A stretch of 64,000 nucleotides of DNA. It comes from Paucibacter sp. TC2R-5. Lineage in GTDB: Bacteria; Pseudomonadota; Gammaproteobacteria; Burkholderiales; Burkholderiaceae_C. The stretch covers positions 1 through 64,000 of the forward strand of contig NZ_JAJIRQ010000012.1 of NCBI RefSeq assembly GCF_025717605.1, written 5' to 3'. Position 1 is the first letter of the stretch. The number at the start of each line of letters is the position of its first letter. Of this stretch, positions 30,861-48,854 are shown in pieces. Position numbers and translations under genes: made by a program. The notes beneath the pieces were generated by a model that had not been told where the DNA came from, searched no databases, and saw only the letters and a list, made by a program, of their open reading frames with translations.

Positions 30861-30875
30861 TGTAGTTTCACTACA
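30861..30875. promoter_or_regulatory. Perfect HexR-like operator in the glgP-malK control region
   Basis: TGTAGT-TTC-ACTACA is a perfect 6-3-6 palindrome. It resembles the TGTART-N3-AYTACA sites reported for HexR in other Proteobacteria (from memory). It is overlapped by a second perfect palindrome, TTTCACTA-CA-TAGTGAAA, at 30866-30883. It lies 178 bases upstream of the chosen glgP start. Confidence 0.65.
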
Positions 30876-30883
30876 TAGTGAAA
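30866..30883. promoter_or_regulatory. Overlapping palindrome TTTCACTA-CA-TAGTGAAA
   Basis: A perfect 8-2-8 inverted repeat that shares ten bases with the HexR-like site. It could be a site for a second regulator or an extended version of the same site. Confidence 0.45.
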
Positions 30884-30947
30884 GCCCGAATTTTTCACTC
30901 ACACCTAGGTTTGCCACCACAAAGTCCTGGCCCCTAGGTAGTTTTGC

Positions 30948-30962
30948 TGTTGTTAAACTACA
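30948..30962. promoter_or_regulatory. HexR-like operator over the malK -35 box
   Basis: TGTTGT-TAA-ACTACA matches the TGTAGT-N3-ACTACA pattern in 11 of 12 arm positions. It covers the -35 hexamer proposed for malK, a position typical of repression. It lies 87 bases from the site at 30861. Confidence 0.6.
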
Positions 30963-30978
30963 TCTTGAACGGTATATT
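30950..30978 (+). promoter_or_regulatory. Putative sigma-70 promoter of the malK operon
   Basis: TTGTTA (30950-30955) and TATATT (30973-30978) are separated by 17 bases and match the consensus in four and five of six positions. Transcription would begin near 30985, leaving a leader of about 28 bases before the malK ATG at 31013. Confidence 0.55.
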
Positions 30979-31012
30979 GCCTCCAAGATAAGACAAGGCG
31001 TGAGACAAAGAT

Positions 31013-32128
31013 ATGGCAGATGTTCAACTCAGCGGCGTGGCCAAGGCCTACGGCGAGGTCAAGATCCTGCATGGGATAGACCTGGAAATTCGCGACGGCG
31101 AGTTCATGGTGTTTGTAGGCCCTTCGGGCTGCGGCAAATCGACGCTCTTGCGCACCATCGCCGGCCTGGAAGAGATCACCGGCGGCGAGCTGCGCATTGG
31201 CGGGCGCGTGGTCAACGAGGTGCCCCCGGCCGAGCGTGGCATTGCAATGGTGTTCCAGAGCTATGCGCTCTACCCGCATATGAATCTGTACGACAACATG
31301 GCTTTCGGCCTGAAGTTGGCCAAGGTGCCGCCGGCCGAGATCGAGGCCGCTGTGCGCGGCGCCGCGAAGATTTTGCACATCGAGCATCTGCTGGATCGCA
31401 AGCCCAAAGACTTGAGCGGCGGCCAGCGTCAGCGCGTCGCGATTGGGCGCGCGATTGTGCGCAAGCCCGAAGTGTTTTTGTTCGACGAGCCGCTGTCCAA
31501 CCTCGACGCCGCCTTGCGTGTGCGCATGCGCTACGAATTCGCCAAGCTGCACGAAGAGCTCAAGACGACGATGGTCTATGTGACCCATGATCAGGTCGAG
31601 GCGATGACGCTGGCCGACCGCATCGTCGTGCTCAATGCCGGCCGCATCGAGCAGGTCGGCACGCCGCTGGAGCTGTATGAGCACCCGGTCAATTTGTTTG
31701 TGGCCGGTTTCATCGGCTCGCCGAAGATGAATTTCCTGGAGGCCGAGGTGGTGTCAGCAGATGCCGCAGGCGCCAAGCTGCGCTTGGCCAGCGGCGCGGT
31801 GGTCAGCGCGGCTGTCCATGCCGCCAGCGCCAAACCCGGCGACAAGGTCACGCTGGGCCTGCGGCCCGAGCATTTCGTCGTTTGCGAAGCTGCGGCCGAG
31901 GCGGTCAACGCGATTCAATGCACGGTCACCTTTGTCGAAGCCTTGGGCAGCGCCACGCACGCTTATTGCGCCTACCCGGGCGTCGAGGATGCACTAACTT
32001 GTGAATTCGACGGCCGCACGCGCATCCGCGCCGGCCAGGACATTCGCCTGAGCCTGCCGCCCGAGGCCTGCTATGTATTTGACGCGGCGGGCGTGGCCTT
32101 GCCACGACTGGGCGGGACGCCGACATGA
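31013..32128 (+). CDS. malK: Maltose/maltodextrin ABC transporter ATP-binding protein
   Basis: A 371-residue MalK-type ATPase. Walker [11 protein letters not shown]-loop [11 protein letters not shown], signature [14 protein letters not shown], Walker [13 protein letters not shown] and the H-loop VTHDQVEAM are intact. The C-terminal third is the TOBE/OB regulatory domain ([25 protein letters not shown]). It powers the MalEFG importer encoded next. Related subunits (UgpC, MsmX) share this layout, but the neighbouring genes support maltodextrin. The stop overlaps the malE start (ATGA). Confidence 0.95.
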
Positions 32129-33309
32129 AAGGCAGCGCCCTCCCACTGCTCGCCTTGCTATTGAGCGGCGCCGTTCACGCTGGCAGTAATCACAAACTGC
32201 TGGTCTGGATCAACGGCGACAAGGCCTATACCGGCCTGCAGCAAGTCGGCGATGCGTTTACCAAGGCCTCGGGCGTCAAGGTCGTGGTCGAGCATCCGGT
32301 CGATGCGACCGACAAATTCCAGCAAGCTGCCGGCGCGGGCAAGGGGCCGGACATTTTTTGCTGGCCGCATGACCGGGTCGGCGAATGGGCCAAATCGGGC
32401 CTGTTGACGCCCTTGCGCCCGAGCAAAAAGCTCTTTGAGGAAGTTGAAGAAGCGGCCTGGAAGGCCTTCGCCTACCAGGGCAAGATCTGGGGCTACCCGA
32501 TCGCGATCGAGACCACCGGCCTGATTTACAACAAGGCCTTGGTGCCTACGCCACCGGCCACATTCGATGAGCTGATCGCGCTCGACAAGCAGTTGCAAAA
32601 GCAAGGCAAGCACGCGATTTTGTGGGACTACAACAAGAGCTTTTTCACCTGGTCCATCCTGGCCGGCGCTGGTGGACAGATCTTTGGCCGCGACGCCAAG
32701 GGCGAGCTTGATGCCAACCAGGTCAGTGTCAACAATGCCGGCGCCTTGGCCGGCGCCGAGTTGATTGCCCGCCTCTTGCGCGAAGGCCATATGCCCAAGG
32801 GCGCACGCTATGCCGAGATGGAAAGCGGCTTTGCCAAGGGCGATGTGGCGATGATGATCTCTGGCCCCTGGGCCTGGGACAACGCCAAGAAAGCCAAGAT
32901 CGACTTCGGCGTCGCGCCGATCCCAGCCGTGGTCGCGGGCAAACCCTCCAAGCCTTTTGTCGGCGTACTCGGCTGCATGATCGCCGCACCGAGCACCCAG
33001 AAAGACATCGCGCGCGAGTTCCTTGAGAACCATTTGATGCGCCCGGAAGGGCTGAAGATTCTGGACGCCGATGTGCCGATCGGCGTGCCTGCCAACAAGG
33101 CTTTCTACGCCGAGTTGTCGGTCAACCCCTTGATCCGAGCCAGCATGGAGAACGCGCGCCTGGGCGAGGCCATCCCCAACATCCCCGAGGTCGGGCGCTT
33201 CTGGACCGCGATGGACGCAGCGCTTGAGGCCATCACCAACGGCCTGCAAAGCCCCAAGGATGCGCTCGACGGCGCCTCGGCCCGAATGCTGCTGAAGACC
33301 GCCAAATAA
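32125..33309 (+). CDS. malE: Periplasmic maltose/maltodextrin-binding protein
   Basis: A 394-residue solute-binding protein with a short signal peptide ([16 protein letters not shown], cleavage after about residue 19). The mature start [57 protein letters not shown], and [16 protein letters not shown] match the MalE family (compare LVIWINGDKGY in E. coli). It hands malto-oligosaccharides to MalFGK. The four-base overlap with malK shows translational coupling. An unusual feature against enterics is that malE lies between malK and malF in one operon. Confidence 0.95.
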
Positions 33310-33324
33310 GTACAAGAAAAACAC

Positions 33325-47467: not shown

Positions 47468-47474
47468 TAGCCTG

Positions 47475-47489
47475 TCTTGTGGAACTACA
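47475..47489. promoter_or_regulatory. Second, weaker HexR-like site
   Basis: TCTTGT-GGA-ACTACA has one perfect and one four-of-six arm. Its centre is 22 bases from the centre of the site at 47453, two helical turns, which would suit cooperative binding. Confidence 0.35.
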
Positions 47490-47511
47490 GAGAAAGCCAT
47501 CCGCGCTTGGA

Positions 47512-48528
47512 TTACTCATGCTGCTGCTCCAACGCCAAGGCCGCGCCACTGAGTGCGGCCAAGGTGTCGATGATCAAGGCAGTCGGGATCTGGGTCAGGT
47601 AGTCGCGAAAGCGCCCCTTGGCCTCGAAGCGCTCGCGAAAGCGCGAAGCAAAAAAGCGCTCACCCAGGCGCGGCACGATGCCGCCGCCGATATAGACGCC
47701 GCCGCGCGCACCCAGGGTCAGCGCCACATTGCCGGCAAAGCCGCCGAGCAAGGCACAAAACACATCCAAGGTTTCACTGCAGATCGCATCCTGGCCGCCC
47801 AAGCCGCGCTCAACAATCAACTCGGCGCTGAGCGCCTGAAAGCCCGGCACCCCACGCACCGCCGCCACCGAGCCATGCAACAGCGGCAGGCCAATGCCGG
47901 ACAAAAACCGCTCGGCCGACACATGCTCGAAACTGCGACGCATATGCGCAAGCAGTTCGCTCTCGAAGGCATCGGCCGGGGCCAGCGTCATATGCCCACC
48001 CTCGCCCGGCAGCGCCACCCATTCGCCATTGGCAAACACCACGCCAGCTACGCCCAGGCCGGTGCCAGGGCCAATCACGGCAAAAGTCGTGGCATTGGCA
48101 GACCGACCCGAACCGGGCACACCCGTGGTCGCGCACCATTGCCGCATTTGGCTTGACTGCAACTTGGGCAAGGACAGCGCCAGCGCCTCGAAATCATTCA
48201 AGACCAACAAGGACTCCAGGCCCAGCGAGGCTTGCACCTCGGTACGCGAGAAGCTCCAATGCCCATTGGTCAGCTCCACACGATCACCAACCACCGCCGT
48301 GGCCACGGCAAAAGCCGCCCGCCGGGGCACCGACTCAAGCCCAGCCTGCGCCAGCAACGGCCGCAGCCCATGCAGATACGCCTGCACCGCCGCGACCGGG
48401 CCGGCATGCTCAGACACCGGCATCACCGCGATATGCATGACCTCGGCGCCGCGCGCGGCCACCCAGCCAAAGCGCGCATTGCTGCCGCCAATATCAGCCA
48501 CCAGACAGGGGTAGGCCCTGGCGCTCAT
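47512..48528 (-). CDS. glk: Stand-alone glucokinase
   Basis: A 338-residue ROK-unrelated, E. coli-type glucokinase. The ATP phosphate motif VADIGGSNARFG, the catalytic Asp in LNDFEALALSLP, IGPGTGLGVAGV and the sugar-binding GEGGHMTLAP are intact. It makes glucose-6-phosphate from the glucose released by MalQ and MalZ. It is divergent from the glk-hexR fusion gene, with a 500-base region and two HexR-like sites between. It is distinct from the fused domain, so the locus has two glucokinases. Start ATG 48528 gives a normal N-terminus. Confidence 0.94.
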   Translation of the reverse strand: MSARAYPCLVADIGGSNARFGWVAARGAEVMHIAVMPVSEHAGPVAAVQAYLHGLRPLLAQAGLESVPRRAAFAVATAVVGDRVELTNGHWSFSRTEVQASLGLESLLVLNDFEALALSLPKLQSSQMRQWCATTGVPGSGRSANATTFAVIGPGTGLGVAGVVFANGEWVALPGEGGHMTLAPADAFESELLAHMRRSFEHVSAERFLSGIGLPLLHGSVAAVRGVPGFQALSAELIVERGLGGQDAICSETLDVFCALLGGFAGNVALTLGARGGVYIGGGIVPRLGERFFASRFRERFEAKGRFRDYLTQIPTALIIDTLAALSGAALALEQQHE

Positions 48529-48695
48529 GCCAACCCTCCCAGGGATGACAGCACAAACCGACCACAGAAAGAATTTGCTCGCACGATAGCTCTCGACTCG
48601 AAACGCTCAAGGCAGCACAAGACCACCCCAAGCCGATACAGACCCCGGCAGCCAACACCACGCCACCAAGCACTTCATTGAATTGTTGCGCAGAA
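48529..48695. other. Left part of the glk / glk-hexR intergenic region
   Basis: Non-coding bases upstream of the stand-alone glucokinase start. It must contain part of the glk promoter; I see no strong match to a sigma-70 promoter. Confidence 0.35.
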
Positions 48696-48710
48696 GGTAA
48701 CAAAACTACA
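48696..48710. promoter_or_regulatory. HexR-like site on the glk side
   Basis: GGTAAC-AAA-ACTACA has one perfect ACTACA arm and a left arm agreeing in three of six positions. It is 168 bases upstream of the stand-alone glk start. It is the weaker of the two sites in this divergent region. Confidence 0.4.
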
Positions 48711-48839
48711 TCGCCTGCGCAATAGCGCCTTTCCCGAATCGCAGCATTTCTTTGAATCTTCAGCTATTCACGAATGCCAACTGGCCTGTTTTCTGCAAAT
48801 TCAAGGCAAAGCACCGGCAAAAGTCTGGCAATTTGCGAA

Positions 48840-48854
48840 TGTAGTCCAGCTACA
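48840..48854. promoter_or_regulatory. HexR-like operator upstream of glk-hexR
   Basis: TGTAGT-CCA-GCTACA matches TGTAGT-N3-ACTACA in 11 of 12 arm positions. It lies 176 bases before the chosen ATG of the fusion gene (107 before the alternative ATG). This suggests that the fusion protein controls its own gene. Confidence 0.6.

Follow-up and report, generated by a model that had tools for sequence, protein, structure and literature searches.

Probable operators of a fused regulator in a maltodextrin locus

In the DNA analysed here, the first 64,000 nucleotides of contig NZ_JAJIRQ010000012.1 of Paucibacter sp. TC2R-5 (RefSeq assembly GCF_025717605.1; hereafter, the window), a maltodextrin locus encodes the fusion of a glucokinase to a regulator of the RpiR/HexR type (glk-hexR; 48962..50980, plus strand). 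The palindromes of the form TGTAGT-N3-ACTACA dispersed among the control regions of this locus are, with good probability, the operators of this Glk-HexR fusion, encoded among them, through which it would repress the alpha-glucan genes. In the mechanism that we propose, the RpiR-type helix-turn-helix (HTH) of the fusion would bind TGTAG(T/C)-N3-(A/G)CTACA, and as long as no alpha-glucans are present, the protein would keep its own gene repressed together with those for maltodextrin transport, glycogen phosphorylase, the TonB-dependent receptor, the separate glucokinase (glk) and a distant pullulanase. The signal would be either glucose or glucose-6-phosphate, perceived via the glucokinase part of the fusion, or a different sugar phosphate accommodated in a remodelled SIS pocket.

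Palindromes in the window and in the genome

A preliminary description of this DNA had pointed to four good palindromes, at 30861, 30948, 47453 and 48840, and these were confirmed: they are the four matches to TGTAGTNNNACTACA in the window at up to one mismatch, the first with no mismatch and the others with one each, and 100 dinucleotide shuffles of the window gave none (mean 0.00, maximum 0). The operator-like site TGTAGTTTCACTACA (30861..30875) lies in the glgP-malK interval, on the glgP side, and TGTTGTTAAACTACA (30948..30962), in the same interval, overlaps the likely -35 element of malK. TGTAATTCAACTACA (47453..47467) is found 5' of the TonB receptor gene, directly past the glk stop, and TGTAGTCCAGCTACA (48840..48854) is located 5' of glk-hexR. 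Two weaker copies had also been described, of which the one at 48696 is borne out: this glk-side site, GGTAACAAAACTACA (48696..48710), is the window copy of the GGTAGCAAAACTACA site found 5' of glk in many relatives. The other, TCTTGTGGAACTACA (47475..47489), with two mismatches, is a match of the window alone and at most a possible second half-site.

The sites had been said to lie only in control regions, and this is the case in the window at up to one mismatch, but at two mismatches there are also matches within open reading frames (ORFs), at 32618 (malE) and 54925. Similarly, the proposed control of the whole locus is supported only for the promoters holding a site; neither the S9 peptidase gene nor the LuxR-type gene has a site of its own in the window at up to one mismatch.

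The genome-wide motif search that had been suggested, covering the 5.13-Mb genome in which the window is contig C4, returned seven places for TGTAGTNNNACTACA at up to one mismatch: the four of the window, C12:639176, C1:726321 and C34:91623. The site C12:639176, outside the window, is intergenic and 5' of the gene for a 1201-residue pullulanase, with a weaker partner site 108 bp off. Since the motif search is blind to gene function, this pullulanase counts as a further alpha-glucan gene that it returned. The last two places are inside ORFs, one for a DUF5672 protein and one for a TonB receptor. A looser match, TGTAATCAAGCTACT, precedes a second pullulanase (L112:1808).

Conservation of the sites in relatives

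The nearest named relatives of the fusion are from Paucibacter and Roseateles. Conservation was studied in 80 named contigs, each holding a relative of the fusion (the best 80 of 151), by counting TGTAGYNNNRCTACA at up to one mismatch within 400 bp upstream of each gene, with 30 permuted palindromes as controls. A site was present 5' of glk-hexR in 70/80 loci, of glk in 73/74 and of the best-matching TonB receptor in 55/57, against a permuted maximum of 1. The counts for glk and glk-hexR overlap, because many loci share one divergent region, and many of the receptors counted are only 35-45% identical to that of the window. Within 300 bp of malK, 10 of the 11 loci have a site (permuted maximum 1), and in 8 of the 11 a further copy, TGTTGT-N3-ACTACA, follows at a distance of 87-89 bp. 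In the Undibacterium locus L045, a pullulanase gene and an alpha-glucosidase-like gene adjoin glk and the fusion, with sites between. Furthermore, when the 6-3-6 near-palindromes of every kind were tallied over the intergenic DNA of the 80 loci, TGTAGT ranked first (81 sites in 51/80 loci) and TGTAGC second (38), the next half-site reaching 12. The sites at glgP/malK, the TonB receptor, glk and glk-hexR thus behave as operators of the single regulon that had been proposed, being conserved upstream of these genes and co-occurring with the fusion.

Another regulator of the locus could in principle be the one that binds these sites, for example the product of the LuxR-type gene (52499-54223) close to the locus, a protein with a MalT-like HTH at its C terminus. 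However, a relative of this gene was found in only 5/80 fusion loci, whereas the site is found in most, and it is an RpiR-type protein, RccR, that is known to bind this word (PMC5489143). We regard this alternative as extremely improbable.

Assignment of the sites to the fusion

The genome holds two genes with an RpiR HTH, the fusion and a stand-alone hexR adjoining zwf, and both have to be considered as the source of the protein binding to the sites. In a survey of 60 genomes of the family, with the fusion counted at 676 bits or more, 12 genomes have the fusion; the exact TGTAGYNNNACTACA is present in 10 of these 12 and in one of the 48 without it (Fisher 9e-9, or 4e-8 if the distant protein of genome G051 is counted as a fusion). 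The exact site in the genome without the fusion, G029, falls within a TonB-receptor ORF. The survey gave 24 distinct exact places, and their coordinates put 22 of them beside malK, glk, glk-hexR, a receptor or pulA/aglA; the remaining two are that of G029 and G007:C1:4907057, described below. G011, the other genome of the same genus, has the zwf-linked HexR and neither the fusion nor an exact site.

The zwf-linked HexR belongs to the same RpiR family, has a nearly identical HTH and is encoded in the same genome, and it might therefore bind the window sites instead of the fusion. Its own promoters, however, carry a different word: TGNAAYNNNRTTACA (TGWAAC-N3-GTTACA) is present at up to one mismatch in 26/30 zwf regions (permuted maximum 2), and in 26 of the 27 where hexR was found beside zwf, whereas the TGTAGY word appears at this threshold in 0/30. 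Even at up to two mismatches within 600 bp, TGTAGYNNNRCTACA is found in 5/30 zwf regions, and four of these matches are TGTAAC-N3-GTTACA. In the Paucibacter genome itself, TGWAAC-N3-GTTACA precedes zwf, ppc (perfect) and pyk, the three that were inspected among nine distinct places matching TGWAACNNNGTTACA; the control count for this pattern (9 and 9) is as high as its own (6 and 4). Moreover, a count by hand among the matches listed gave at least about 30 genomes where a HexR-like match is present but the fusion is not, and in a single one of these an exact TGTAGY site occurs. Binding of the window sites by the zwf-linked protein is thus considered very unlikely.

The recognition helices of both proteins also differ. 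The helix reads SQPTVIRFCR in all 75 rows of the fusion (74 loci plus the window, as six of the 80 fusions were excluded for a short frame), whereas the zwf-linked proteins have, at the two varying positions, K in 28/28 rows and V in 27/28 (the own gene being entered twice); that of RccR is SEPTIVRFCR. It is because of the co-occurrence, the separate zwf word and these differing helices that the TGTAGT sites are assigned to the fusion. As for the HexR-type control proposed in the preliminary description, it is upheld in that the fusion co-occurs with the sites, and has to be amended in that their word is that of RccR, unlike the TGWAAC-N3-GTTACA of zwf-linked HexR promoters.

In one genome (G042:C1:1828370-1831589), zwf, a glucokinase gene and a HexR-like gene stand side by side and unfused, possibly a picture of the origin of the fusion.

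Predicted mode of action

All promoter elements described here are predictions, read by eye from the sequence and the profiles. The likely malK promoter (30950..30978, plus strand; 8-row profile) consists of a -35 TTGTTA (30950-30955) and, after 17 bp, a -10 TATATT (30973-30978). In the malK regions of relatives, the second site likewise contains the likely -35 (TTGTNA), 17 bp before a TATATT-like -10 (8-row profile). On the opposite strand, the likely -10 of glgP, GATACT (30836..30841, minus strand), lies 19 bp from the operator and is present in 9/10 profile rows. At glk, a conserved TTG and TACCTT on the minus strand are separated by 17 bp, and the site fills this likely -35/-10 interval (69/81 sequences gave a row). 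The departures from the palindrome, TGTTGT at malK and CTACC at glk, coincide with positions that the promoter hexamers would need. Such an overlap with likely promoter elements, seen for malK, glgP and glk, favours repression, and the fusion is likely to repress its targets.

A looping or helical-phase reading of the paired sites was also considered and set aside: the malK/glgP pairs are 87-89 bp apart, but the spacing of the glk/glk-hexR pairs, judged by eye, varies from 65 to 201 bp, for which reason the paired sites look like separate operators of divergent promoters.

Several observations qualify, or weigh against, the fusion as a repressor acting through these sites. In this genome, the reversed-pattern control outnumbers the motif, with 271 versus 53 matches at up to two mismatches, and likewise 16 versus 7. 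The count of sites alone therefore proves nothing, and the evidence is their place and their conservation. In the family survey, the fusion is not accompanied by an exact site in genomes G025 and G059, the Fisher test ignores kinship, and one exact site, G007:C1:4907057 (L257:5058), is not at a known alpha-glucan gene. Ten of the 80 fusion loci have no site 5' of glk-hexR at up to one mismatch within 400 bp, and the masked ORFs of these loci contain 36 TGTAGT near-palindromes versus the 81 intergenic ones, at a per-base rate 30-fold below the intergenic one. The pullulanase count is weak, with a site in 8/12 loci at up to two mismatches within 300 bp while one permuted control reached 5; at 600 bp it is 9/12, and this set includes L156 and L157, whose match does not begin before about residue 326, and L158, where it begins at residue 616, so that their upstream windows are misplaced and they were scored as misses. 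Finally, the receptor site lies at a nearly fixed distance of about 257 bp from its gene (median 257, range 152-301, quartiles 250-266), a spacing that hardly suggests plain blocking of a promoter. The place G007:C1:4907057 is flanked by the ORF of an Asp/Asn hydroxylase and by one that has no match in Pfam, and a TonB receptor is close by.

The receptor site bears on a further alternative, in which the fusion would be an activator for part of its targets, above all the TonB receptor. The site is well above a CTAGTTTT element found near -105 in 55/58 receptor leaders, TAGGGTTT being present upstream in 42/58, and this CTAGTTTT element may be the receptor promoter or the site of another regulator. 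Activation is nevertheless judged improbable, given that the malK, glgP and glk sites overlap likely promoter elements, which fits repression. In the window, the conserved receptor-leader element is seen at about 47300 on the minus strand, around AATCTAGTTTTGGTACAAA, near -105. In several loci, a hairpin followed by a T stretch, resembling a glk terminator, follows the receptor-side site.

Effector pocket and kinase domain

The proposed repression raises the matter of its signal, for which the preliminary description had named 2-keto-3-deoxy-6-phosphogluconate (KDPG), along with glucose-6-phosphate, as a ligand to try. In RccR, KDPG is contacted by S139, H148, R152, H164, S183, S185, S188, K270 and R277 (PMC10810197). 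Our comparison covers the first seven of these residues, since K270 and R277 are beyond the end of the alignment. In the 75 fusion rows, S139 is replaced by Y in 74, H148 by F or Y in 72, H164 by R or K in 75, and S188 by L, V, I, M or A in 75, while R152 and S183 are unchanged in all 75, and S185 is unchanged in 50. The zwf-linked HexR (28 rows) keeps all seven, with H148 in 27 and S188 as S or T. KDPG was thus set aside as the obvious effector and is doubtful in that role, as most of the alignable RccR contacts are replaced, and the signal of the fusion is probably not KDPG. Conversely, the zwf-linked HexR, where the contacts are kept, is probably the KDPG sensor of this cell. The fusion might still bind its sites and answer KDPG as RccR and HexR do, as an ordinary Entner-Doudoroff-type switch with starch targets; the operator word shared with RccR speaks for it, as does the conservation of the residues equivalent to R152 and S183 throughout the 75 rows, but S139, H148, H164 and S188 are replaced in the fusion and kept in the zwf-linked protein (in 27 or 28 of 28, with S/T at 188). 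Such a switch appears unlikely.

The glucokinase domain (PF02685) retains N130, D131, E188, H191 and E218 in 75/75 rows each, which we take to be glucose-binding or catalytic residues by the roles of their counterparts in E. coli Glk. Its GGTN loop, on the other hand, reads GGTY or GGTF in 75/75 rows, and a separate glk is present in the same locus in 74/80 cases. A sensing role of the domain would be attractive because of this combination of kept catalytic residues, an altered loop and a separate glk nearby. We tentatively propose, as a possibility that may well prove wrong, that the glucokinase domain, with its altered phosphate loop, acts as the sensor telling the RpiR repressor of glucose or glucose-6-phosphate, and that the SIS domain would be a ligand-free or re-tuned clamp.

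Relation to known regulators

The closest operator is that of RccR from Pseudomonas, whose 15-bp word is TGTAGT-N3-ACTACA, with sites TGTAGTTTTACTACT and TGTAGTAAAACTACA at aceE (PMC5489143); the sites of the window agree with this word by their sequence and by their conservation. RccR (PDB 8K3B) and the fusion share the RpiR HTH, the SIS domain and this word, with a sequence match of 213 bits. Contrary to the fusion, RccR has no glucokinase domain, targets aceEF and the genes of the glyoxylate shunt and gluconeogenesis, binds KDPG via residues mostly replaced in the fusion, and also uses 28-bp sites. Sites of this latter type, TGTAGT-N16-ACTACA, were found neither in the window at up to two mismatches nor in the genome at up to one.

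HexR shares with the fusion the RpiR HTH, the SIS domain, operators of the 6-3-6 type and a link to sugar metabolism. The HexR regulons of Proteobacteria are described as central-carbon ones (PMC5343134), whereas in this genome it is the zwf-linked protein that suits such a role, given TGWAAC-N3-GTTACA upstream of zwf, pyk and ppc. The model PRK14101 (NF010701), for a bifunctional transcriptional regulator/glucokinase, has the same domain order over residues 28-617 of the fusion and names no regulon. The ROK repressors, such as Mlc and NagC, also join a sugar-kinase-like fold to a DNA-binding domain, but their HTH and kinase families are others and they have no SIS domain. In the titles and abstract openings of the literature on glk-hexR, HexR/RpiR, glucokinase and maltodextrin or starch, we found no report of such a regulon. 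The operator word, from RccR, and the fusion by name, from PRK14101, were hence already known; judging from sequence comparison, what appears to be new is their combination in one RpiR protein, which is fused to a kinase, has an altered pocket and would control a starch regulon through an operator of the RccR type.

Other features of the locus

The genes of the locus were named by profile matches and, for the fusion, also by sequence matches. Next to the malK site, glgP, for a glycogen/maltodextrin phosphorylase (28227..30683, minus strand; its start at 30683 is our choice), is divergent from malK, for an ABC transporter ATPase (31013..32128, plus strand). The latter is followed on the plus strand by malE, malF and malG (32125..35820) and by a gene for a maltodextrin glucosidase or neopullulanase-like enzyme (35804..38218). 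Further along, the TonB-dependent receptor gene (44411..47194) and glk, for the separate glucokinase (47512..48528), are on the minus strand. A search of positions 30600-49100 against Rfam gave no match.

In the fusion, the glucokinase is followed by HTH_6 (PF01418; 68.2 bits, cut-off 28.3) and SIS (PF01380; 57.6 bits, cut-off 25), the domain order of the RpiR/MurR family. It scores 241.8 bits against the HexR model PRK11302 (NF008451), below the curated cut-off of 296, as does the zwf-linked HexR (239.3 bits), and 816.9 bits against PRK14101, below the curated cut-off of 920. The true start of glk-hexR is probably the ATG at 49031, because most relatives align only from about residue 24-28. 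At the other end (50800-50980 and relatives), a strongly conserved tail, approximately GVSLASPLARLTSHSR, follows a variable linker. The AlphaFold model of the fusion (predicted TM-score 0.49; mean predicted local distance difference test 67.5, and below 50 for residues 617-672, a disordered tail) underlies none of the claims made here.

Biological meaning

These results suggest a likely function for a fusion whose database names go no further than its domains, and would place in one cell two HexR-type proteins with separate operator words and regulons. They also bring up the matter of direct communication between a kinase and promoters. The paralogue pair would lend itself well to tracing the DNA specificity of RpiR proteins to a single helix position, 404 (Q vs K). 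If the kinase domain were indeed the sensor, one HexR-type lineage would have changed its target word, its regulon, from central carbon to starch, and its sensor.

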